A stretch of DNA of 64,000 nucleotides from Procambarus clarkii (Eukaryota > Arthropoda > Malacostraca > Decapoda > Cambaridae), in assembly GCF_040958095.1 (NCBI RefSeq), contig NC_091228.1, forward strand, positions 6,737,700 through 6,801,699. Reading direction: 5' to 3'. Positions 3,736 through 62,224 of this stretch are shown here, piece by piece; position 1 is the first letter of the stretch, and each line of letters opens with the position of its first letter. The position numbers were made by a program, and so were the translations under genes. The notes beneath the pieces were generated by a model, which searched no databases, was not told where the DNA came from, and saw only the letters and a list, made by a program, of their open reading frames with translations.

Positions 3736-3903
3736 TGAACTTTCAAAGTTCCCTCACCAATAATAGTACAAATTTCACAAGTTCATTTTGTTATATCATG
3801 AGAAATTGAGATATAACACAATTTCTCTCTCATGTTTCTCACTTAATCTGTTCCTCTCTTTGTCTCTTTGTCTCTTGTCTTTCTACCTGTCTGTTGACCA
3901 GTC

Positions 3904-4023
3904 CACACACTAGAAGTTGAAGGGACGACGACGTTTCGGTCCGTCCTGGACCATTCTCAAGTCGATTGTGATGAGGAGGTAGGGTCAGGCAATAAATAGG
4001 CAAGCGAGAGCTGAGGAGGAAAG
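3904..4023 (+). mobile_element. Single-arm GACGACG element, alternative tail
   Basis: It starts ttgaccagtccacacac, contains gggacgacgacgtttcgg and tccgtcctggaccattct, then departs from the hairpin copies after gtcgattgtgatgagg into a private tail (gtagggtcaggcaataaa...). Perfect 12-bp direct repeats tctacctgtctg flank it at 3892-3903 and 4024-4035, consistent with a target-site duplication. Confidence 0.75.
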
Positions 4024-4035
4024 TCTACCTGTCTG

Positions 4036-4373: not shown

Positions 4374-5028
4374 TGCAACCCGTTCTCGCACTTGCTTATA
4401 GTCAATATTGGCTTATTTAATAAGTGCGTATGTGACATAGTAATTGATTGTGAATGTTTTAGTTTACCTTGAAAAGCTTCATAGAAAACACCGACCTCAC
4501 CTAACCTTCTTAGTATGTTAAGATAAGCATCTTATTGCTTCTTAATTACAATTATTACTTAACCTATCAACGGTATAGGTTAAGTAATAACTGTAAATAA
4601 GAAGCAATAAGATGCTTATCTTAATATACTAAGAAGGTTAGGTGAGGTCGGAGAGCCGGTCGGCCGAGCGGACAGCACGCTGGACTTGTGATCCTGTGGT
4701 CCTGGGTTCGATCCCAGGCGCCGGCGAGAAACAATGGGCAGAGTTTCTTTCACCCTATGTCCCTGTTACCTAGCAGTAAAATAGGTACCTGGATGTTAGT
4801 CAGCTGTCACGGGCTGCTTCCTGGGGGTGGAGGCCTGGTCGAGGACCGGGCCGCGGGGACACTAAAAAAAGCCCCGAAATCATCTCAAGATAACCTCAAG
4901 AAGGTCGGTGTTTTCTATGAAGCTTTTCAAGGTAAACTAAAATATTCACAATCAATTAGTATGTCACATATGCAATTATTAAATAAGCCAATATTGACTA
5001 TAAGCAAGTGCGAGAACGGGTTGCCGGG
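4374..5028. mobile_element. Palindromic (foldback) element split by a SINE
   Basis: The left arm begins caacccgttctcgcacttgc and the right arm ends gcaagtgcgagaacgggttg. The arms match through tatagtcaatattgg, aaaagcttcatagaaaac and acctcacctaaccttctt, with a hairpin centre near 4570. The right arm is interrupted at 4652-4903 by a SINE-1 copy. A SINE-free relative lies at 32016-32345 and shows what the element looked like before that insertion. Confidence 0.88.
4652..4903 (+). mobile_element. SINE-1, full-length, inside foldback element
   Basis: The tRNA-Thr-like head (gagcggacagcacgctgg; anticodon-loop sequence cttgtga, i.e. TGT; box B gggttcgatccc) is followed by the body: agaaacaatgggcagagttt, ttacctagcagtaaaatagg, gctgtcacgggctgcttcc, ggcctggtcgaggaccgg. 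The 3' end is atcatctcaagataacctc. The host sequence aggtcgg occurs on both sides, giving a 7-bp target-site duplication. Confidence 0.92.
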
Positions 5029-6715: not shown

Positions 6716-6749
6716 CTATGTGTTTATATAGTTATTCCTATAAAAAATT

Positions 6750-6923
6750 GTTGACCAGACCACACACACACTAGAAGGTGAAGGGACGACGACGTTTCGG
6801 TCCGTCCTGGACCCTTCTCAAGTCGATTGTAATGGTCTAGGATGGACGGAAACGTCGTCGTCCCTTCAACTTCTAGTGTGTGGTCTGGTCAACATACTTC
6901 AGCCACGTTATTGTGACTCATCG
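6750..6923 (+). mobile_element. GACGACG hairpin element, full copy
   Basis: The left arm ttgaccagaccacacac, gaaggtgaagggacgacg, acgtttcggtccgtcctgg is mirrored in the right arm ending tagtgtgtggtctggtcaac. An unpaired tail catacttcagccacg, ttattgtgactcatcg follows. Direct repeats cctataaaaaatt (6737-6749) and cctatcaaaaatt (6924-6936), 12 of 13 identical, flank it. Confidence 0.87.
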
Positions 6924-6936
6924 CCTATCAAAAATT

Positions 6937-7099
6937 ACTTCTCCCGAATTACCGAAAACTACTTCTCCCAAAGTACTTGTTATCTAGTACTGGAAACGAG
7001 GGAAATAATCTGAACCACACCCTCGTGCGCGCGCGCATGCGAGCACCATGACAGCTGCTTCAAGAGATGACGCTGAATCGGACTCTAGTTTAATCCCCG
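6937..7099. other. No recognised feature
   Basis: Unique-looking sequence with a short alternating purine-pyrimidine stretch (gtgcgcgcgcgcatgcg, about 7025-7041) that could adopt Z-DNA. Nothing else is visible. Confidence 0.4.
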
Positions 7100-7298
7100 C
7101 CAAACACACACCGAAACTACGACGTTGGTACAACGTTCGAACAAGTTTTAACACCTCCTAACCAGTTATAACAACCAATATAGCAAGTTGTAGCAACGTT
7201 CCAATACGTCATAAACACGTTAAGCCAAGATGTAATAACTTTATTACAAGTTGTAACAAGCGGAAAATAGAGACAGTTTCGGTTTGTGTTTCCAGGGA
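7100..7298 (+). mobile_element. ~200-bp inverted-terminal-repeat element, copy 1
   Basis: The ends are ccaaacacacaccgaaac on the left and, read in reverse complement from the right, tccctggaaacacaaaccg. Internal markers are tacgacgttggtacaacg, ccagttataacaaccaat and aacacgttaagccaagatg. Three further copies lie at 34397, 58563 (inverted) and 60072. It has no coding capacity, so it resembles a non-autonomous DNA element; no target duplication is obvious. Confidence 0.85.
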
Positions 7299-7540: not shown

Positions 7541-7840
7541 TAAATCTCTATTGCCTCGTACATTAAAACATTTAAATTTTCGCAGCCATGCCTGATTGCG
7601 CTTCTCTAAGAGATCATCCGCGTACAGCCAGACTGTTGCTGCTGGCATTCCTCAAGCTCACATAAACCCGTCACAACCCAACTGTTTATACCCACTTCTT
7701 TCAGGAACTTCTCAGCTTCACGGAAGCTAATATAGGCCCTTTTTGAGATGATTGACTTACCAAGACGAAACTCAGACTTTCCTGTAAGCTAACCTCCAAG
7801 TCACGCTGCAGAGTTCCTTTGAAACAAGTACGGTAACCTT

Positions 7841-8048
7841 GTTGACCAGACCACACAGTAGAAGGTGAAGGAACGACGACGTTTCGGTCCGTTCTGGACC
7901 ATTCTCAAGTCGATTGTGAGAATGGTCAGTGAGAGAATCACAATCGACTTGAGACTGGCCCAGGACGGACCGAAACGTCGTCGTCCCTTCACCTTCTAGT
8001 GTGTGGTCTGGTCAACATACTTTAGCCACGTTATTGTGACTCGTCGTC
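7841..8048 (+). mobile_element. GACGACG hairpin element, full copy
   Basis: It runs from gttgaccagaccacacag, through gaacgacgacgtttcggt and an extended loop, to the mirrored arm and the tail acatactttagccacg, ttattgtgactcgtcg. The arms carry several substitutions, so it looks older than the copies at 43581 and 60755. I found no clear flanking duplication. Confidence 0.83.
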
Positions 8049-9012
8049 AGTCATCTGTGTGCAGTCTGCATCATTTTTGTTCATTGCTGTTCATAATTGG
8101 TTCAAACATCTGCTGTTCTATCACAAAATACACCTTGTCATGTGTTCTTATTTCACTGACATGTCATCAGAATATCATCGGGACTCGTGAAGAACTAGCC
8201 GGAGAGTATACATCATTGGTATATACACCGAGAAGTGCAGGCATATATAATTTCTCGGTATATACACAGCGAAATATATATATTTTTTTTTGGGGGGGGG
8301 GTGGTTCTGAACATATGCCTAAGACTAAATTTGTATATTAACTGGTTGGTCAATAAGCAATTGTGGTGCCCTTAACAGCCCTCTCGTGGTTGACGGAGCC
8401 TTAAGCCCAACACCAGACAAGAGGCTGGTTGATCATACTACTGTTTTGGGTTGATGAATGTGGTTGAACATGTCTGGCTCTTTACCTCCATCAGGTGTGT
8501 GGTTCTTCACCTATATGAAGTATATGATGACTCCGAGAGTGGCTCCCACGGGCCACGAACCCCCCCACACACACTCCCCCATCATGATCTGAGGTTTAGT
8601 TCCCAAAGATATCAAAGAAAACACACTTGTCGTTAATGGCGGTCATAAAGCGAGTCTAAACGAGCACCAGCTGCTGCTCTGACACCTCCATCATTCGCTT
8701 TATGAATGCTATGACCGTGAAAAATACTGGTAATAGGTTCCTTCTTGTGACTCTAAATGGCATCGTTACCTTCCGTAACCAGTGGGTATGGGCACATCAT
8801 CACATAGCATCACTATTCTTTATAAACAACATGAACAGGCTCAAGAATGTTTCCTCTGGGACGGTAACAGGAGAAATATTCCACACGACAACAGGTAAAG
8901 CAGTCGGAAGTCAAGTCCCAAAATTGGCGCCATAGATTGAAAACTAACAAGATTGTGAAATTCTGGCAGATGTACGATATTCCCAAAGAGATATTCCCGA
9001 TATTCCCATCAC
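8049..9012. other. No recognised gene or element
   Basis: It contains a local inverted repeat (tatacaccgagaa...ttctcggtatata near 8220-8265), a short poly-G run at 8290-8301 and small frames of under 115 codons without recognisable motifs. Confidence 0.35.
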
Positions 9013-9036
9013 CATCTAGTGTGTGGTCTGGTCAAC
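9013..9036 (-). mobile_element. GACGACG element remnant
   Basis: Only the end segment atctagtgtgtggtctggtc plus aaca survives, matching the terminal 24 bases of the hairpin family. Confidence 0.6.
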
Positions 9037-9719
9037 AGATGACTGGATCTGAGCCTCGGGAAACAAGATGATGGATGATCTTGGCAGCCATCTGAAGACA
9101 CAGTATTGAATCTTCATCCCTGCATCGCTGTTGTTATAACCAAAACACAACACGTATTGAATCAGCAGCCCGGACTCACCCACACACAGCTCGACGGTCA
9201 AGGAAATGACACAGAACTTTTGCTACAGTGAGACAAAGAAGTCAGCGTAATGATATTCTATGTAACCACATGTTCGAAGTTGTATTTATCGACCCTTAGA
9301 ACTGTGTCAGTGGACGAGCAGACACCAAAGGTGACCTCGCTCATCATTCCCAGTCGAGTTTCACCAGTCAGAGAACATGAGAAATAACGGGTCTGACGAA
9401 ATCTTGGAGTGACGGCATTGACATCATCATTTTCTACAGTGACCAAAGGTGACAACGGTGGTCACACTGTACAAACGCCACCACAATAACAGAGGAGGGT
9501 TAAGATACAAGAGAGGGGCGGGGAAAGTGATATCTTGTGAGGGGGACACAAGGATGTCTCTCTCACAAGATATTAATCTTGCCATCTAAGGGAAGATATA
9601 TCACGCTTCTACAGAGTCATGATGTACAGCCAGAGAACACTGCAAATTGTTGCAAAGGAAGAAATACTTCCTTTAAATACTTCTAAAAGGAAGTATTTGG
9701 AGAGGTGCGACTCGAACAC
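9037..9719. other. No recognised feature
   Basis: No element signatures or convincing frames. Small inverted repeats are present (cacaagatat/atatcttgtg around 9525-9572). Confidence 0.35.
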
Positions 9720-20343: not shown

Positions 20344-21195
20344 CTGTAAATAAATAAAACTCAATAAAACTGTGATTGATTCCTACGTGGATATAAATAG
20401 GATTTGAGTGGATAATAATTGGAGCTGTTTCGTGTGGGAAAATAGGCCTTCTGCAACTTATTTAATTCTTGGGCTTTTATGCACTCCATGTTGGAGGCAA
20501 ATCTGCCACTAAGCTCAAGGTTACTATAACTTATCTCAAGATATAGTTATATGTACTCCAAAGTCAATTGTATACAAAATTCAAATATACGCAGACGAAA
20601 GTCAAATATTCGTTTATATACAAAAGTCAAATATGAATACAAATTCAAATATTCGTATGAATTCCCAAATTCAAATCATTTATTAAAATTTAAATGGATA
20701 AAAAAATCATACGAATCAATATCATATGAATAAATGAATCATATCTTTATCAAAGTTGACAGTGATAAAAAGAGGAATTCTGAGAATGAAATTTCGTCTC
20801 AGAGATACGTTGAACATCCATCTACCCCCCCCCCGCTTCTGTTGTGATGAAGTCCAGTACACTCAATCCTCAACTGAACACCTGTTCACTGCAGCTTTAG
20901 CTGTTGGGCATCGTTACGAAATGATGGTTCCCAGACAGATAGATAAACTTACTTCCCAAAATCGACCACCAATACTAAACAACGCAGCGCCCTGTTCTGA
21001 CATCACACACGTATATTAATTTTGAAGTCAGAGCCCCGAAGAGGTCTCAAGGTATCGTTTACGATACGAAGCAGCATGAAGCAGCACCTTGTTTGTCAAC
21101 ACACAACACCTGGTTCATCAAGAAAATTTGATGAGAAAAATAATGACAGTTTGCAGACGTTGAGTCGCAATAACGTCGTGGGAGAGTTCATATCC
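20344..21195. other. No recognised gene
   Basis: AT-rich. Around 20570-20730, loosely repeated tcaaatat/ttcaaatcat/attcg motifs form a degenerate A/T tract. The frames at 20756-21019 and 21022-21210 are short and motif-free. Confidence 0.35.
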
Positions 21196-21199
21196 AACC

Positions 21200-21302
21200 C
21201 AGACATCTGAAAAGTAGGAAACGACGACGTTTCGGGCCGTCTCGGATCATTATCAAATCGTGTAATGCCGAAAAGTCGTCAATTCTTAATTTTCAGATGT
21301 GC
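21200..21302. mobile_element. Diverged GACGACG element remnant with inverted edges
   Basis: aaacgacgacgtttcgggcc, gtctcggatcattatcaa and atcgtg follow one arm of the family with many substitutions. The edges acatctgaaaa and ttttcagatgt form an 11-bp inverted repeat. Confidence 0.55.
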
Positions 21303-21359
21303 GAGTTGAGTATCAATTACAGATTTTTCATTAAACATTGATGAAAGTAATTTCACACC

Positions 21360-25970: not shown

Positions 25971-26230
25971 ATCTTGAGGTTATCTTGAGATGTTTTCGGG
26001 GCTTTTTAGTGTCCCCGCGGCCCGGTCCTCGACCAGGCCTCCACCCCCAGGAAGCAGCCCGTGACAGCTGACTAACACCCAGGTACCTATTTTACTGCTA
26101 GGTAACAGGAGCATAGGGTGAAAGAAACTCTGCCCATTGTTTCTCGCCGGCGCCTGGGATCGAACCCAGGACCACAGGATCACAAGTCCAGCGTGCTGTC
26201 CGCTCGGCCGACCGGCTCCACTAGATTACA
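25971..26230 (-). mobile_element. SINE-1, full-length, with 11-bp target duplication
   Basis: On the minus strand the order is tRNA-Thr(TGT)-like head, agaaacaatgggcagagttt, ttacctagcagtaaaatagg, gctgtcacgggctgcttcc, ggcctggtcgaggaccgg, gccccgaaaacatctcaag. Identical 11-mers ctagacacact lie at 25960-25970 and 26231-26241. About 11 bases (actagattaca) separate the head from the right repeat. Confidence 0.93.
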
Positions 26231-27783: not shown

Positions 27784-28036
27784 GGAGCCGGTCGGCCGAG
27801 CGGACAGCACACTCGACTTGTGATCCTGTGGTCCCGGGTTCGATCCCAGGCGCCGGCGAGAAACAATGGGCAGAGTTTCTTTCACCCTATGCCCCTGTTA
27901 CCTAGCAGTAAAATAGGTACCTGGGTGTTAGTCAGCTGTCACGGGCTGCTTCCTGGGGGTGGAGGCCTGGTCGAGGACCGGGCCGCGGGGACACTAAAAA
28001 GCCCCGAAATCATCTCAAGATAACCTCAAGATAACC
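27784..28036 (+). mobile_element. SINE-1, full-length
   Basis: The same head-to-tail order as the 4652 copy, with the anticodon-loop sequence cttgtga (TGT) and box B gggttcgatccc. The tail is ctcaagataacctcaagata. No convincing flanking duplication. Confidence 0.92.
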
Positions 28037-32015: not shown

Positions 32016-32345
32016 CCAACCCGTTCTTGCGATTTCGTATAGTCAATATTGACTTATTAAATGCGTACATATGTGACATACTAATTTATTGTGAATATTT
32101 TAGTTTACCTTGAAAAGCTTCATAGAAAACACCGACCTTACCTAACCTTCTTAGTATGTTAAGATAAGCATGTTATTGCTTCGTAATTACAATTATCTTT
32201 ACATACTAAGAGGGTTAGGTAAGGTCGGTGTTTTCTATGAAGCTTTTCAAGGTAAACTAAAATATTCACAATAAATTAGTATGTCACATATGCACTTATT
32301 TAATAAGTCAATATTGACTATACGAAAGTGCGAGAACGAGTTGGG
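32016..32345. mobile_element. Palindromic (foldback) element, uninterrupted copy
   Basis: The ends ccaacccgttcttgcg and cgagaacgagttgg are inverted. The arms match through tagtcaatattgac, tttaccttgaaaagcttcat, agaaaacaccgacc and ctaaccttcttagtatg, with the hairpin centre near 32195. It is the counterpart of 4374-5028 without the SINE. Confidence 0.88.
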
Positions 32346-32773: not shown

Positions 32774-33214
32774 CCCACTTGGGCTAGGCGGTAGAGCGAC
32801 GGTCTCGCTTCATGCAGGTCGGCGTTCAATTCCCGACTATCCGGTTATCTTGAGGTTATCTTGAGATGATTTCAGGGCTTTAGTGTCCCCGCGGCCCGGT
32901 CCTCGACCAGGCCTCCACCCCCAGGAAGCAGCCCGTGACAGCTGACTAACTTCCAGGTACCTATTTACTGCTAGGTAACAGGGGCATTCAGGGTGAAAGA
33001 AACTTTGCCCATTTGTTTCTGCCTCGTGCGGGAATCGAACCCGCGCCACAGAATTACGAGTCCTGCGCGCTATCCACCAGGCTACGAGGCCCCTGGTTGC
33101 AAGTGGTTGGGCACCATTCCTTCCCTCCGTCCCATCCCAAATCCTTAACCTGACCCGTTCCAAGTGCTATATAGTCGAAATGGTATGGCGCTTTCTCCAA
33201 ATAATTCCCTTCCC
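32774..33214 (+). mobile_element. SINE-2, interrupted by a SINE-1 insertion
   Basis: The head ccacttgggctaggcggtag, agcgacggtctcgcttcatg, caggtcggcgttcaattccc lies at 32774-32842. After the insertion the body resumes: caagtggttgggcaccattc, cttccctccgtcccatccc, aaatccttaacctgacccg, ttccaagtgctatatagtcg, ending ataattcccttccc. This is the best plus-oriented view of the SINE-2 layout. Confidence 0.85.
32843..33093 (-). mobile_element. SINE-1 with tRNA-Thr(CGT)-like head, nested in SINE-2
   Basis: On the minus strand, gcctcgtagcctggtggata opens the head; the acceptor arm GCCTCGT/ACGAGGC pairs fully, the T-arm gcgggttcgattcccgc pairs fully, and the anticodon loop ctcgtaa reads CGT. The standard SINE-1 body follows to ctcaagataacctcaagata. 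Its position inside SINE-2 makes it the younger insertion. Confidence 0.92.
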
Positions 33215-34200: not shown

Positions 34201-34396
34201 CACAAACATATGATACAGATACTCAGAATATGCCAATGAAGCCATGACATCAGGAGCTGTCAGCTGTCACACTGTACGACTGGGTAAACAATTTCTTAAT
34301 AAATTAGGAGATTGCGTTCGACGACATGGCTTTACTTTCGTCATTAAAACTTAAACGTGTTTCAATATTATTCAGGTTATGAGTATTCACAACCCG

Positions 34397-34595
34397 CCAA
34401 ACACACACCGAAACTACGACGTTGGTACAACGTTCGAACAAGTTTTAACACCTCCTAACCAGTTATAACAACCAATATAGCAAGTTGTAACAACGTTCTA
34501 ATACGTCATAAACACGTTAAGCCGAGATGTAACATCTTTATTACAAGTTGTAACAAGCGGAAAATAGAGACAGTTTCGGTTTGTGTTTCCAGGGA
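34397..34595 (+). mobile_element. ~200-bp inverted-terminal-repeat element, copy 2
   Basis: Nearly identical to 7100-7298: ccaaacacacaccgaaacta, caacgttcgaacaagtttta, aacacgttaagccgagatg, ending ggtttgtgtttccaggga. Confidence 0.87.
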
Positions 34596-36667: not shown

Positions 36668-37812
36668 CACCTATTTGTGCTTGCGGGGGTTGAGCTCTGG
36701 CTCTTTGGTCCCGCCTCTCAACCGTCAATCAACTGGTGTACAGATTCCTGAGCCTATTGGGCTCTATCATATCTACATTTGAAACTGTGTATGGAGTCAC
36801 CCTCCACCACATCACTTCCTAATGCATTCCATTTGCTAACTACTCTGACACTGAAAAAGTTCTTTCTAACGTCTCTGTGGCTCATTTGGGTACTCAGCTT
36901 CCACCTGTGTCCCCTTGTTCGCGTCCCACCAGTGTTGAAAAGTTCATCCTTGTTTACCCGGTCGATTCCCCTGAGGATTTTGTAGGTTGTGATCATGTCC
37001 CCCCTTACTCTTCTGTCTTCCAGTGTCGTGAGGTGCATTTCCCGCAGCCTTTCCTCATAACTCATGCCTCTTAGTTCTGGGACTAGTCTAGTAGCATACC
37101 TTTGGACTTTTTCCAGCTTCGTCTTGTGCTTGACAAGGTACGGGCTCCATGCTGGGGCCGCATACTCCAGGATTGGTCTTACATATGTGGTGTACAAGAT
37201 TCTGAATGATTCCTTACACAGGTTCCTGAACGCCGTTCTGATGTTAGCCAGCCTCGCATATGCCGCAGACGTTATTCTCTTTATGTGGGCTTCAGGAGAC
37301 AGGTTTGGTGTGATATCAACTCCTAGATCTTTCTCTCTGTCTGTTTCATTAAGTACTTCATCTCCTATTCTGTATCCTGTGCCTGGCCTCCTGTTTCCAC
37401 TGCCTAGTTTCATTACTTTGCATTTACTCGGGTTGAACTTCAACAGCCATTTGTTGGACCATTCACTCAGTCTATCCAGGTCATCTTGTAGCCTCCTACT
37501 ATCATCCTCTGTTTCAATCCTCCTCATAATTTTTGCATCGTCGGCAAACATTGAGAGGAACGAATCTATACCCTCTGGGAGATCATTTACATATACCAGA
37601 AACAGTATAGGTCCAAGGACTGACCCCTGCGGGACTCCACTTGTGACGTCTCGCCAATCTGAGACCTCACCCCTCACACAGACTCGTTGTCTCCTGTTGC
37701 TTAGGTATTCCTCTATCCACCGGAGTACCTTCCCTCTCACTCCAGCCTGCATCTCCAACTTTCGCACTAGCCTCTTGTGTGGCACTGTATCAAACACAGT
37801 GTCAAACACAGT
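36665..37812 (-). mobile_element. 5'-truncated non-LTR retrotransposon
   Basis: The element holds the C-terminal part of a reverse transcriptase frame (36754-37809) and about 90 bp of 3' non-coding sequence (gctcaggaatctgtacacc, agttgattgacggttgagag, gcgggaccaaagagccagag, ctcaacccccgcaagcac), ending aataggtgagtac then (AC)n. The 5' break falls within reverse-transcriptase motif A and is bordered by the short repeat aaacacagtg. 5' truncation is typical of target-primed reverse transcription. Confidence 0.93.
36754..37809 (-). CDS. Reverse transcriptase of a LINE, 5'-truncated (351 aa)
   Basis: This is the C-terminal two thirds of an RNA-directed DNA polymerase that copies LINE RNA into DNA at the target site. 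The frame opens on motif A (FDTVPHKRL, residues 6-14; the upstream Asp-containing segment is lost). It continues with VLRWIEEYLSNRRQRV (28-43), motif B SGVPQGSVLGPILFLVY (57-73) and the catalytic FADD box (88-91). Next come LSEWSNKWLLKFNPSKC, EKDLGVDITPNLSPEAHIKR and ILEYAAPAWSPYL, and a C-terminal segment found in Jockey/CR1-like elements. The terminal RYDRAQ stop is shared with decayed copies. No endonuclease remains. The initiator ATG is fortuitous. The absence of any stop in 1,056 bp suggests a recent insertion. The clade (CR1, Rex1 or Jockey group) is inferred from motif style only. Confidence 0.9.
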   Translation of the reverse strand: MFDTVFDTVPHKRLVRKLEMQAGVRGKVLRWIEEYLSNRRQRVCVRGEVSDWRDVTSGVPQGSVLGPILFLVYVNDLPEGIDSFLSMFADDAKIMRRIETEDDSRRLQDDLDRLSEWSNKWLLKFNPSKCKVMKLGSGNRRPGTGYRIGDEVLNETDREKDLGVDITPNLSPEAHIKRITSAAYARLANIRTAFRNLCKESFRILYTTYVRPILEYAAPAWSPYLVKHKTKLEKVQRYATRLVPELRGMSYEERLREMHLTTLEDRRVRGDMITTYKILRGIDRVNKDELFNTGGTRTRGHRWKLSTQMSHRDVRKNFFSVRVVSKWNALGSDVVEGDSIHSFKCRYDRAQ

Positions 37813-37827
37813 GCCACACAGTGTGGC

Positions 37828-37830
<3 letters not shown>

Positions 37831-37906
<76 letters not shown>
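37831..37906. repeat. (GT)n microsatellite
   Basis: 38 GT units; 3' neighbour of a second LINE end at 37907. Confidence 0.97.
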
Positions 37907-37909
<3 letters not shown>

Positions 37910-38221: not shown

Positions 38222-38333
38222 CTGCCTTCAAACAACACCCAATGTTAGCGACACAAACCAAGCCAAACAAATACACACACATAGATATATCACACCAGTC
38301 AAATCACTCAAAATTACAGACATTACAGCCAGA

Positions 38334-38468
38334 GTTGAGAATGAAGTCGATTACACAATCGACTTGAGAATCGTCCAGGACGGACCGAAACGTCGTCGTC
38401 GTCCCTTCACCTTCTAGTGTGTGGTCTGGTCAACATACTTCAGCCACGTTATTGTGACTCCTCGCCTG
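38334..38468 (+). mobile_element. GACGACG element, 5'-truncated copy
   Basis: It begins in the loop (tcgattacacaatcgacttg), carries only the second arm (ggaccgaaacgtcgtcgtcg, tagtgtgtggtctggtcaac) and keeps the tail ttattgtgactcctcgcctg. Direct repeats cattacagcc at 38321-38330 and 38469-38478 flank it. Loss of the 5' side with a target duplication is what truncated reverse transcription produces. Confidence 0.82.
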
Positions 38469-38472
38469 CATT

Positions 38473-39993
38473 ACAGCCTGACGTACAGTCACTGACTACA
38501 TTCACGATCTCGTATTTAGAGAACCATTATTTATGATGATTGGTCCATTGATGACAACATCAATACTTCCTCCAATCACCACGAAAGGTATTTTAATGAT
38601 TAGTGGTTTGATGAATACAATACTCACCCCCTCCCCACTACACCCTTCCAGTGCAAAACACCAAAGAATATGCTGTGAAAAAAGATCGAATCTGACCAAT
38701 TCAACACGAGAATGTAAACAAGCAATCAGCTGTTATGTCAATAGACACTTTAAATACCATTCAAGAATTATGTGACAAGATGGACTAGTTAGTTCAATAA
38801 TTCTCCAACTCCTTCCATGGGAGAACAGAAGAAAGATATGCCTGTTCTTTAACATTACAACTGAATGAACACTTATGTGGCAGAACAGTAATCAATCCGG
38901 TATTGAACTGAACGATCCAAGGGGCACTATACTGCTTAATGATTTAGTGCAATGATCAGACATTGACGCCACTGGTGCCATTGTACAGGTGCAGTGAAAG
39001 TACTCTGACACCATTATCATCCCAAAGGGGAACAGCGAACCGTACCTAAACGATTCGACTACACTGGAATTTGACTCTTAGATAATATAGCCCCATCAGA
39101 GTCGTGAGAGTAATGACCCAATGACAAGTGACAATTTAAACAAAGTAATCTTAACACTTACTCGGTTGAGGTCTTGTTTCCCACTCCGCAGAACGTCATG
39201 GTTGCAGAGTGGGCGACGCGCCTGACCTGTCATCACCCAACATGGTCGTTGGCTGATAACGAAATGTCGCCTCGACCCACACGTTGGTACACATGGGTAG
39301 CCCCCCCCACACCGGAAGTCCTGGACTATGTTCAGCATCTAAGTAAACTTGTTGGGTACTCACTGTACACTGTTCCAGTGACCGTAATGGCCCTCCAGAG
39401 GCTGACAGACCTCAAGTCTCACACCAAAAGTAGCCACCACCACACAAGCCGTCTAAGGGTCACGGGGAGAGTGTGTTATTGACTCAAACGATTAAACATG
39501 TGACTATACCGAGCGCATCGTCAAACCTCTGACAACCATCACAATGGCTTCGTTATACAATAAATATCCTTCATCATTTACGGAGTAGAGAGAATTCAGG
39601 CATCTCATTCTGATTTATAATACAATCAAATAAATCTGAATGTAAATCTCAGGCCAATACGACAGCGGAAGTTATGTACGGAAAATGATTGAAGCGCCGG
39701 AATTTAATGGCTGCCGATATGGCATCATTGAACTTCCAGCTTACCTGCATTGTGATTGGCTGAATGGGTAGTTATGTCCGTCGAGGACACGCCCACTGTG
39801 TTGATATATTTCATCTCTATGAACATGAAGAATATGTGTTCTTTCTGAGGTGAACGAGACCTGAAAATCACAAGAGCCTGGTTATCATATTTAAGATATC
39901 AAATGGATATAAAATTAGAATTTTCTTTGGATTTTTCCTCTTTACTCAACTTCCACACATATGATAAAACTTGTATTTGTTGTAAATTCAGTC
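38473..39993. other. No recognised gene
   Basis: 1.5 kb free of tandem repeats and of families I can name. The 102-codon frame at 39174-39482 has no recognisable motif; other frames are shorter. Worth a translated search as the longest non-repetitive stretch. Confidence 0.4.
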
Positions 39994-40240
39994 ATCTTGA
40001 GGTTATCTTGAGATGATTTCGGGGCTTTAGTGTCCCCGCGGCCCGGTCCTCGACCAGGCCTCCACCCCCAGGAAGCAGCCCGTAACAGCTGACTAACTCC
40101 CAGGTACCAATTTTACTGCTAGGTAACAGGGGCATAGGGTGAAAGAAACTCTGCCCATTGTTTCTCGCCGGCGCCTGGGATCGAACCCAGGACCACAGGA
40201 TCACAAGTCCAGCGTGCTGTCCGCTCGGCCGACCGGCTTC
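39994..40240 (-). mobile_element. SINE-1, full-length
   Basis: Minus-strand order as in the 25971 copy, with anticodon TGT and the head ending at gccgaccggc. The 3' end is tcatcttgaggttatcttgag in plus reading. Confidence 0.92.
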
Positions 40241-43569: not shown

Positions 43570-43580
43570 CAGTTTCCCAT

Positions 43581-43792
43581 GCAGGCGACGAGTCACAATA
43601 ACGTGGCTAAAGTATGTTGACCAGACCACACACTAGAAGGTGAAGGGACGACGACGTTTCGGTCCGTCCTGGACCATTCTCAAGAAGATTGTGGATACAC
43701 CGTTTTATCCATTCTCACAATCGACTTGAGAATGGTCCAGGACGGACCGAAACGTCGTCGTCCCTTCACCTTCTAGTGTGTGGTCTGGTCAA
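43581..43792 (-). mobile_element. GACGACG hairpin element, full copy with 11-bp flanking repeats
   Basis: It runs, in reverse orientation to the 6750 copy, from the tail gcaggcgacgagtcacaata, acgtggctaaagtatgttg through both arms to ggtctggtcaac. Perfect 11-mers cagtttcccat lie at 43570-43580 and 43793-43803. The loop (ggatacaccgttttatccat) is private to this copy. Confidence 0.93.
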
Positions 43793-43932
43793 CAGTTTCC
43801 CATCTCTGTCTCTGTTTACCCCCCATTCTCATTACCTTCCCCAGCTTTCTTGGGGTTGAACTCTAGTAGCCATCTGTTTGGCTGCTTCTGGAATTTATCA
43901 AGGTCTTTGTGTACGGAGGAGGAAAGGGTGGT

Positions 43933-46794: not shown

Positions 46795-46968
46795 ATTTTG
46801 GAGGCTGACTCCATGCACAGTTTCAAGTGTAGATATGATAGAGCCCAAAAGGCTTTGAAACCTGTACACCTGTTGATTGACGGTTGAGAGGCGGGACCAA
46901 AGAGCCAGAGCTCAACCCCCGCAAGCACAAGTAGGTGAGTACAAATAGGTGAGTACACACACAGTATG
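46795..46968 (+). mobile_element. LINE 3' end (C-terminus and UTR)
   Basis: ggaggctgactccatgcaca, gtttcaagtgtagatatgat, agagcccaaaaggctttgaa, then the UTR (gacggttgagaggcgggacc, aaagagccagagctcaaccc). Compared with 36754, the stop codon position reads aaa (AQK) rather than tag. It ends aataggtgagtacacacaca. Confidence 0.88.
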
Positions 46969-48928: not shown

Positions 48929-49176
48929 TTATCTTGAGGTTATCTTGAGATGATTTCGGGGCTTTTTAGTGTCCCCGCGGCCCGGTCCTCGACCAGGCCT
49001 CCACCCCCAGAAAGCAGCCTGTGACAGCTGACTAACACCCAGGTACCTATTTTTACTGCTAGGTAACAGGGGCATAGGGTGAAAGAAACTCTGCCCATTG
49101 TTTCTCGCCGGCGCCCGGGATCGAACCCGGGACCACAGGTTCACAAGTCCAGCTTGCTGTCCGCTCGGCCGACCGG
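48929..49176 (-). mobile_element. SINE-1, full-length
   Basis: Head, body and tail as in the 39994 copy, with the box B region changed to a more perfect stem (gcgcccgggatcgaacccgg in plus reading) and an aaagcagcctgtgacagc body variant. Confidence 0.92.
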
Positions 49177-53793: not shown

Positions 53794-53823
53794 ATGAGAG
53801 TGACTGATGTATCCACCTAATTT

Positions 53824-53968
53824 TAATTGTGGTGGTTGAGCTTCGGCTCTTTGGTCCCGCCTCTCAACTGTCAATCAACTGGTTGTACAGGTTCCTGAGC
53901 CTATTGGGCTCTAATCATATCTACATTTGAAACTGTGTATGGAGTCAGCCTCCATCACATCTAAAGTG
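53824..53968 (-). mobile_element. LINE 3'-end relic
   Basis: ggtggttgagcttcggctct, ttggtcccgcctctcaactg, tcaatcaactggttgtacag, gttcctgagcctattgggct, then ttgaaactgtgtatggagtc. It matches 36690-36805 and lacks the terminal (GT) run. Confidence 0.88.
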
Positions 53969-55285: not shown

Positions 55286-55345
55286 GATACATAATGTCAT
55301 ACATTCCATTCCTTGTATGGATACAATTTCCTACTATCCACCAGG

Positions 55346-55560
55346 AGCCAGATTCACGAAGCAGTTACTCAAGCACTTACGAACCTGTCCATCTTTTCTC
55401 AATCTTTGGCGGCTTTGTTTACAATTATTAAACAGTTAATGAGCTCCGAAGCACAAGGAGGCTGTTTATAACAATAACAACAGTTGATTGGCAAGTTTTC
55501 ATGCTTGTAAACTGTTTAATAAATGTAACCAAAGCCGTCAAAGACTGAGGAAAGATGTAC
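55346..55560. mobile_element. Inverted-repeat (MITE-like) element, simple copy
   Basis: The left end gccagattcacgaagcagtt, actcaagcacttacgaacct and the right unit at 55561 are inverted repeats of about 40 bp. Internal sequence (caatctttggcggctttg, gagctccgaagcacaaggag, acagttgattggcaagtttt) matches 1420-1600. It is the unrearranged relative of 1383-1766. Confidence 0.87.
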
Positions 55561-55697
55561 ACGTTCGTAAGTACTTGCGTAACTCCTTCGTAAATCTGGC
55601 CCCCAGGTTCGTAAGTACTTGCGTAACTCCTTCGTGAATCTGGCCCCCAGGTTCGTAAGTACTTGCGTAACTCCTTCGTGAATCTGGCCCCCAGGTC
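55561..55697. repeat. 44-bp tandem repeat of the element end, 3 copies
   Basis: aggttcgtaagtacttgcgt, aactccttcgtgaatctggc, ccccc: three units, the first with cgttcg and gtaaatc differences. It parallels the 19-copy array at 1767. Confidence 0.93.
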
Positions 55698-58562: not shown

Positions 58563-58766
58563 TCCCTGGAAACACAAACCGAAACTGTCTCTATTTTCCG
58601 CTTGTAACAACTTGTAATAAAGTTGTTACATCTTGGCTTAATGTGTTTATGACGTATTGGAACGTTGTTACAACTTGATATATTGGTTGTTATAACTGGT
58701 TAAGTGGTGTTAAAACTTGTTCGAACGTTGTACCAACGTCGTAGTTTCGGTGTGTGTTTGGAGGGA
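58563..58766 (-). mobile_element. ~200-bp inverted-terminal-repeat element, copy 3 (inverted)
   Basis: It starts tccctggaaacacaaaccg and ends ggtgtgtgtttggaggga. Both ends carry TCCCT, giving the clearest view of the terminal repeats: tccct, two variable bases, then aaacac...accgaaact. Confidence 0.88.
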
Positions 58767-60071: not shown

Positions 60072-60272
60072 CCAAACACACACACCGAAACTACGACGTT
60101 GGTGCAACGTTCCAACAAGTTTTAACACCTCCTAACCAGTTATAACAACCAATATAGCAAGTTGTAACAACGTTCCAATACGTCATAAACACGTTAAGCC
60201 AAGATGTAACAACTTTATTACAAGTTGTAACAAGCGGAAAATAGAGATAGTTTCGGTTTGTGTTTCCAGGGA
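60072..60272 (+). mobile_element. ~200-bp inverted-terminal-repeat element, copy 4
   Basis: ccaaacacacacaccgaaac, gttggtgcaacgttccaac, ending gtttcggtttgtgtttccag. It has one extra AC in the left end. Confidence 0.87.
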
Positions 60273-60754
60273 AGACCCCGAAGGGGGTACTGAGACATGC
60301 AGAGTAAAACTAGTAGAGTTGGCTGACAAACACTTCTTAAACGTCATATTCCAATTATGTCGAAAGGGCAGCATGAATTAAGAAGGGGAAAAATCGATCT
60401 TAGCAAACTTGATAGAGTTCTACAAGAGGGTTACTCAAATATTTCAAGATACTAATACCTGGGTGGACTGTATTTTCCTAGACTATCAAACAGCATTTGA
60501 CACTTTTTCTCACGAAAGACAGGAAAACAAGATGGAAAAGCAGGGTGGAATAATTTTGGGAAATTTGAAGTGGATAAAGTAGTATGTAAAGGACAGAAAA
60601 CAAAGAGTCAGAAAGTGGGTTTCAAGCTGGAGAAATGTATGGAGCAAGAGGGCTTAGTTCTCAAACCATTTCTGCACCTACATTACGTGAATGACCTACT
60701 CAAGGGAGTGATCTCGTACTTGTCAATGTTCGCAGACGACACAAAGCTGTGTCG

Positions 60755-60940
60755 ACTGTTGACCAGACCACACACTAGAATTTGAAGGGACGACGACGTT
60801 TCGGTCCGTCCTGGACCATTCTCAAGTCAAGAATCGACTTGAGAATGGTCCAGGACGGACCGAAACGTCGTCGTCCCTTCAAATTCTAGTGTGTGGTCTG
60901 GTCAACATACTTCAGCCACGTTATTGTGACTCATCGCCTG
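60755..60940 (+). mobile_element. GACGACG hairpin element inserted in LINE, 13-bp target duplication
   Basis: Both arms are intact and almost perfectly complementary (gaagggacgacgacgtttcg ... cgaaacgtcgtcgtcccttc), with a very short loop (caagtcaagaatcgacttga) and the tail ttattgtgactcatcgcctg. Identical 13-mers caaagctgtgtcg lie at 60742-60754 and 60941-60953, and the LINE sequence explains the pre-insertion site. Confidence 0.95.
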
Positions 60941-60953
60941 CAAAGCTGTGTCG

Positions 60954-61428: not shown

Positions 61429-61976
61429 GGTGTTGATATAATTCCAACACTGACACAGGAGGCACACATAAACAGGGTAACATTTGCATCATATGAAATG
61501 CTAACAGACATTAGAACATCATTTAGAAACCTAAATCAGGATTCATTTAATGCAGTCTACACAGCATTTGTCAGACAAATAAAGGAATATGCAGCAATAG
61601 CATGGAATCCGCACTTTATGAAGTACAAAACTAAAATTGAAAAAACACAGGAGTTTGCAACACGATTTGAGCTAGAGTTAAGAATATTAAATTATGAGAA
61701 CTAATGGAACTAGACCTCACAGCTCTAGAGAAAACACAGAGTGGATATGATCTCAACATACGAGATAACGAGGGAATAGAGAAGGCGGAGAACGACAACC
61801 TGCTTAAATAGAGAGAAGAAGATATAAGGATATAAGTGGAAGCTGGAAACGCAAATCAGAGATACGTAAGGAAATATTCGTTCCCTGTACGAGTTGTCAT
61901 CAAGTGAAATACGCTGAAAAAAGAAGTTCTAGAAGCCACCTCCAACCCCAAAATTTTAAAGCTAGATTTGGACAGG

Positions 61977-62224
61977 GGGCCTCGTAGCCTGGTGGATAGC
62001 GCGCAGGACTCGTAATTCTGTGGCGCGGGTTCGATTCCCGCACGAGGCAGAAACAAATGGGCAAAAGTTTCTTTCACCCTGAATGCCTCTGTTACCTAGC
62101 AGTAAATAGGTACCTGGGAGTTAGCCAGCTGTCACGGGCTGCTTACTGGGGGTGGAGGCCTGGTCGAGGACCGGGCCGCGGGGACACTAAAAAGCCCCGA
62201 AATCATCTCAAGATAACCTCAAGA
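61977..62224 (+). mobile_element. SINE-1 with complete tRNA-Thr(CGT)-like head
   Basis: The head (61979-62049) folds as a tRNA apart from a weak D-arm: acceptor GCCTCGT/ACGAGGC, anticodon stem CAGGA/TTCTG with loop ctcgtaa, T-arm gcgggttcgattcccgc. The body continues to the usual 3' end. It lies at the codons for the LINE's terminal residues. Confidence 0.93.

Follow-up and report, generated by a model that had tools for sequence, protein, structure and literature searches.

The hairpin-shaped insertions in this 64,000-nucleotide stretch of the Procambarus clarkii genome (hereafter the window) are probably ORF-less insertions of a Penelope-like element (PLE), each made from two target-primed cDNAs that began at two different start sites and were joined head to head. 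As an earlier sequence-only reading of the window had stated, a near-perfect hairpin with a tail on one side is indeed present, and direct repeats lie beside all five of the copies that it listed; four of the five pairs of flank coordinates stood as given, while the left repeat of the first copy begins at 3882 and not at 3892. This first copy (c1, 3882–4035) carries the repeat TCTACCTGTCTG at 3882 and 4024 (target duplications at 3882–3893 and 4024–4035) on either side of a one-armed insertion (3894–4023, element sense on the minus strand), which has neither tail nor second arm and consists of a tail-less arm plus 54 nt of extra sequence that come from the upstream UTR of the parent element. 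The second (c2) is a two-armed hairpin with a right-hand tail (6750–6923), lying between duplications (6737–6749 and 6924–6936) that agree in 12 of 13 letters (CCTATAAAAAATT at 6737 vs CCTATCAAAAATT at 6924), and its arms differ by a single letter at the haplotype site (AGGT/AGTT). The third (c3, 38331–38468, plus strand) has one arm and a right-hand tail, a short fold-back taking the place of the second arm, and is bounded by copies of CATTACAGCC at 38321–38330 and 38469–38478. The two remaining copies are two-armed: c4 (43581–43792), with a left-hand tail, sits between copies of CAGTTTCCCAT at 43570–43580 and 43793–43803, and c5 (60755–60940), whose right-hand tail occupies about 60905–60940, between copies of CAAAGCTGTGTCG at 60742–60754 and 60941–60953. 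The duplications thus vary in length from 10 to 13 bp at the five loci, as that reading had it, and an exact repeat of at least 10 nt occurs by chance at 0.085% of 20,000 random position pairs drawn from the window outside tandem repeats. The further claim that truncation is one-sided fails, as the window contains both one-armed types, the tail arm only (38321–38478) and the tail-less arm only (3882–4035).

Comparison of the window with its own copies by BLAST revealed a sixth full hairpin that had been overlooked (c2b, 7840–8046), two-armed and with a right-hand tail, beside which no duplication adjoins. The 11-mer CAGTCATCTGT in its tail-side flank (about 8048–8058) is found again on the opposite strand at about 9035–9045, beside a fragment comprising the outer 34 bp of the arm (9004–9037), and it looks as if c2b and this fragment were one insertion split by a rearrangement of about 1 kb. 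Another hairpin, at about 21151–21310 (f21221), is old and diverged and has a similar tail at its left end; the flanking repeat found there is 7 nt at most.

The window is also rich in other repeats. A tRNA-like SINE family of about 230–250 bp, 86–98% alike, is represented at 4653–4901, 25971–26217, 27784–28013, 32866–33093, 39994–40238, 48950–49176 and 61976–62206, and a tRNA was called in two or three of these copies (ARAGORN, Rfam). A LINE reverse-transcriptase remnant lies on the minus strand at 36754–37908, with two copies of the 3' end of that LINE, bearing terminal repeats of AAATAGGTGAGTAC, at 46799–46926 and 53814–53961; c5 itself sits within a LINE remnant bearing the motif FADD. A dispersed repeat of about 200 bp with constant ends (96–98% alike) occurs at 7096–7298, 34393–34595, 58563–58765 and 60078–60272, and other long palindromic repeats, MITE-like by eye and unrelated in sequence to the PLE hairpins, at 1426–1725, 4376–4651, 32016–32344 and 55344–55562.

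Genomic copies were collected from 30 of the 40 places scored for c5, from 39 other places found with c4 as query, and from c2b, c4 and c5 in the window; the 72 parsed rows correspond to 65 distinct insertions by flank, seven rows being duplicates. Left out of the 65 were the one-armed c1 and c3, c2 (no parse anchor), f21221 (too diverged) and the long-armed L119. Since the sample consists of the best hits of two tail-containing hairpin queries, tail-free hairpins would be under-sampled in it; the words of arm-only queries were masked as too common in the genome search, and arm and tail are both absent from 18 kb of arbitrary genome positions. Each of the 65 hairpins consists of two head-to-head copies of one mRNA-sense region, the one beginning at the outer tail end (GCCTGCA/TATGG in the sense strand, the slash marking the boundary) and the other 35 nt upstream (GGTCAACA/TAC). 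On a common reference, one arm starts at position 0–6, which is the outer tail end, and the other at 30–39 (mode 35), and exactly one tail is present in 65 of 65. When the flanks of these copies were tested, target duplications of at least 8 nt, with one mismatch allowed, were found in 64 of 65 insertions (median 13 bp), a count for which the random control covered exact matches only; exact duplications of at least 8 nt were measured in 50 insertions (median 12). Their lengths are mostly 9–18 bp within a range of about 8 to 18 bp, no fixed length being seen, and such variable duplications fit the insertion by target-primed reverse transcription that the sequence-only reading had proposed.

The two arms of a hairpin resemble each other more closely than they resemble the arms of other hairpins. 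At a variable site, each arm can be assigned a main haplotype in 59 copies, and the two arms agree in 58 of them, compared with a mean of 18.2 and a maximum of 32 of 59 under 10,000 permutations; the exception is L040 (AGTT/ATTT), and the arms of L010 also differ by one letter. The arms differ on average by 1.2 letters within a copy and by 2.2 between copies, and 26 of the 65 copies have identical arms. The centres, by comparison, are nearly all different: 61 are distinct among the 65 copies, three of them recurring (in 3, 2 and 2 copies); AAG, the centre found three times, goes with the haplotypes ATTT, AATT and AGGT. With centres this diverse between nearly identical arms, and with AAG copies that differ in haplotype, the best reading is that every insertion formed a new hairpin. 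The inner ends of both arms cluster at reference GATTGTG: that of the tail-less arm lies at position 115 in 35 copies (a position that counts one letter also belonging to the fold-back) and at 107 in 14, and that of the tail arm at 111–116 in 57. The two inner ends of a hairpin lie no more than 2 nt apart in 43 of 65 copies, and at least 3 nt apart in the other 22, on which an argument from equal length is silent. Short fillers stand between the arms. The letters GAAT or AGAAT, which a fold-back of the arm would be expected to leave, come after the tail-less arm in 31 copies and after the tail arm in 5.

Sequence identity shows that the hairpin arm is the pseudo-LTR (pLTR) of a PLE present in the same genome (4.03 Gb), and that the tail is the stretch that separates this arm from the PLE start codon. 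At least 40 genomic places match the c1 query over at least 133 nt at 97–100%, so its 54-nt stretch is common to other copies, and in L006, L007, L009, L011 and L012 this stretch comes, on the opposite strand, after an open frame with a GIY-YIG-like end; the frame fragment of L007 matches Pfam GIY-YIG with an E of 2.8e-4 (21.5 bits, just under the cut-off of 22.6). When 134 aa of that frame were searched against the genome, 14,817 first-look candidates came up, and the 150 of these that were scored are 98–100% identical, some of them within open frames of 811–815 aa. The full-length order, seen in L077, L078 and L079, is UTR, arm, 35-nt tail, ATGGATACC..., 815-aa open frame, UTR and 3' arm (pLTR), the ATG of ATGGATACC being residue 19 of the 815-aa frame. 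L078 and L079 are partial tandems, the former with an additional, second tail after its 3' arm, and L077 has an inverted pLTR upstream, its fetched region stopping short of its left end. In the two 815-aa frames scanned, RVT_1 scores above the Pfam cut-off (E of 7.7e-8 and 6.1e-8) and GIY-YIG below it (E of 0.0013 and 0.0012), and we take the parent to be a PLE that carries its endonuclease at the C-terminus. It shares with the Penelope/Poseidon group a single frame with reverse transcriptase (RT) and C-terminal GIY-YIG, pLTRs in tandem (L078, L079) and/or inverted (L077), an optional 30–40-bp tail between two RT start sites, and short target duplications of variable length. Among 20 loci cut from a search with the Pfam GIY-YIG model, the arm is matched in two, L045 (86%, the tail being matched as well, both downstream) and L059 (84%); there was no arm match at the other 18, which are other families.

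A hammerhead ribozyme was not recognised by Rfam, at E up to 10, in c5, f21221 or L007. Positions 1556–1634 of L007 hold what we take to be a hammerhead-like core (UUGAGAA, stem GGUCC/GGACC, GAAAC-GUC) in which two core positions are off consensus. By eye, this degenerate core, with C3 and G8 changed, falls in the part of the arm where a hammerhead is placed in the available text on a lizard PLE (PMC11167929). CAUA is the sense-strand sequence at each of the two start sites. CACAATC, the sense counterpart of the reference GATTGTG at which the arms end, begins 28 nt after a TATA-like TATTTAT, and the 5' end of the mRNA probably lies at or near it.

We propose that the PLE endonuclease would make a staggered cut in the target, whose two 3' ends would both prime reverse transcription inside the PLE mRNA, each using a different one of the two start sites, which lie 35 nt apart. 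The two cDNAs would extend for about 80 and 115 nt to the 5' end of the mRNA near CACAAUC, and error-prone end joining would then unite their ends head to head, with short fold-backs and fillers. Short arms are expected if reverse transcription starts on the 5' pLTR of an ordinary mRNA, with about 80–115 nt then left to the 5' end; read-through transcripts could account for the longer arms of L008 and L119. If one of the cDNAs were long, the product would be a PLE copy bearing a short piece of inverted pLTR on its 5' side, and priming from one end only would yield a one-armed copy such as c1 or c3. Counting against such a two-primer model are the one-letter discordance between the arms of L040, c2 and L010, and the lack of an adjoining duplication at c2b.

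The target sites and junctions were inspected wherever an exact duplication had been measured (50 insertions). A is found in 29 of them at the second base before the duplication and likewise in 29 at the third; beyond the duplication, T occupies the second base in 27 and the third in 24 (binomial P of 1.1e-5, 2.4e-5 and 6.8e-4 against the composition of the window, weaker against a richer AT background and uncorrected for the positions viewed), a symmetry that would suit a dimeric endonuclease cutting both strands alike. An ambiguous overlap of at least 2 nt is present at 27 of the 50 tail-less junctions and 22 of the 50 tail junctions, compared with 16–17% in simulation. The fold-backs and templated fillers resemble those of polymerase-theta end joining.

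Insertions retrieved with the tail-free c1 query showed the same pairing of ends. The 29 loci used (L005–L012, L119 and L130–L149, about three quarters of the places found with c1) represent 23 distinct insertions, in which the queried arm has a tail in 8 and none in 15. A second arm can be recognised by its outer end in six (L008, L010, L119, L133, L134 and L146), and all six have one tailed and one tail-less end, with duplications of about 11–14 nt as read by eye. The flanks of L010 are found again at L145, L147, L148 and L149, and it was counted once; given identical flanks at five places, this insertion seems to be carried within another repeat or a segmental duplication. Were the two sites chosen independently at these frequencies, two tails would be expected in 21% of tailed pairs; under such independent choice, the finding of no two-tailed hairpin among the 65 has a P of 2e-7, and that of one end of each kind in six of six a P of 0.009.

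The long-armed insertions also bear on self-priming, in which the 3' end of a PLE cDNA folds back and primes a copy of that cDNA, which becomes the second arm. This is the explanation published for inverted PLE pLTRs in Adineta vaga, in the portions of that report accessible to us (PMC3846280), and the match between the arms of a copy, the fold-backs at the centres (with their bias of 31 to 5 toward the tail-less arm) and the palindromic centre of full-length L077 are all in its favour. In L133, L134, L146 and L010, however, the tail is on an arm of about 34–77 nt. The long arm begins at the tail-less site and is devoid of a tail, so the tail cannot have been copied from it. Moreover, the 43 hairpins with inner ends equal to within 2 nt leave no loop for a fold-back, and self-priming does not explain why copying should halt 35 nt early, at the very site at which one-armed copies start. 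We consider self-priming improbable as the origin of the hairpins, and prefer the joining of two cDNAs, one primed at each site.

The sequence-only reading had instead favoured a SINE-like hairpin RNA, which would arise by transcription of hairpin copies and depend on a LINE for its mobility. Variable target duplications, the potential for a stable fold and the LINE remnants in the window are compatible with this model, but we regard it as very unlikely. Mobilisation by a LINE does not fit the arm and tail, which belong to a PLE with reverse-transcriptase and GIY-YIG domains, nor does a mobile hairpin RNA fit the 61 centres that accompany near-identical arms in the 65 insertions or the three haplotypes of the AAG copies, a pattern at odds with a SINE unit inherited whole from source copies. 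The model also has to contend with one-armed copies of both kinds and with the lack of a Pol III-derived head, there being no tRNA, 5S or 7SL match at the hairpins (ARAGORN, and Rfam at gathering scores; box A/B was sought by eye only). A reading of the tail as a LINE tail was rejected along with it, LINE 3' ends and tail having been compared by eye only, and so was an miRNA reading, the Rfam miRNA matches being under gathering scores and reflecting hairpin shape. Least probable of all is a Foldback or MITE-type DNA transposon, which the long inverted arms, small size and duplications might call to mind. Against it stand duplications of about 8 to 18 bp in place of a fixed length, asymmetric ends in place of symmetric terminal inverted repeats (all 65 hairpins have a tail on one side only), duplications around one-armed copies as well, and a parent encoding reverse transcriptase.

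Akin to the crayfish parent element, the Penelope elements of Adineta vaga (Pen2a_Av etc.), in the part of their description available to us, have a single RT and GIY-YIG frame, direct and inverted pLTRs, an optional 31-bp tail at one inverted pLTR, short target duplications and palindromic junctions; unlike here, the inverted pLTR there flanks an element, and that part describes neither an ORF-less hairpin class nor a rule of one end from each start site (PMC3846280). According to the accessible text of PMC11167929, the purified lizard PLE (PAc, a Poseidon element of Anolis carolinensis) cuts and extends both target strands in vitro, reverse transcription starts inside the RNA, and two RT start sites bound the tail; a dimer is predicted and targets are AT-rich. 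The start sites of PAc lie inside the ORF, whereas those here lie upstream of the start codon, PAc has a working hammerhead, whereas none was recognised here, and hairpin insertions are not described in that text. By analogy, the hairpins resemble what the reaction seen with the purified lizard PLE would leave behind in vivo. Penelope-1_LVa and other shrimp Penelope families, which we liken by description, provide a crustacean 808-aa frame with RT and GIY-YIG, and the excerpts available describe no hairpins (PMC5055719). Metazoan retrozymes are likewise small and non-autonomous and have been proposed to be moved by PLEs, but are defined, in the portion available, by hammerhead ribozymes and circular RNA, and no hammerhead was found here (PMC7761336).

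We did not find ORF-less, one-tailed PLE hairpins announced in the titles and abstract openings of the literature searched, a body of partly accessible texts outside which most subscription journals lie. Six 18–20-mers of the arm had no match in the text of the published papers searched, and no relatives were found in phages, viral contigs or GTDB genomes. An 18-mer match in L001 was set aside as an isolated word, and L002–L004 gave no alignment to the repeat-masked window at an E of 1e-3. Known, then, are PLEs with an inverted pLTR and a tail; new is the evidence for hairpins formed de novo, with one end from each site, from two primed cDNAs.

To our knowledge, the mechanism by which PLEs insert is still unsettled. 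The hairpins act like sequenced products of the reaction, in many copies of which start sites, template end, cut stagger, target preference and joining scars are legible to the base. We regard it as quite possible, if somewhat short of probable, that one mRNA bound by an endonuclease/RT dimer at two neighbouring CAUA sites and copied twice, with one site for each target 3' end, is the normal first step of Penelope insertion, and that hairpins are the by-product when copying starts on the 5' pLTR. That two start sites are each used once on the same kind of template is a testable proposal, which fits the Anolis in vitro data as far as these are available to us (PMC11167929). There is a risk that hairpins of this kind are annotated wrongly as SINEs, MITEs or miRNA precursors and, more speculatively, if the proposal is true, perfect inverted repeats of the mRNA 5' end could feed RNA interference against the parent element.
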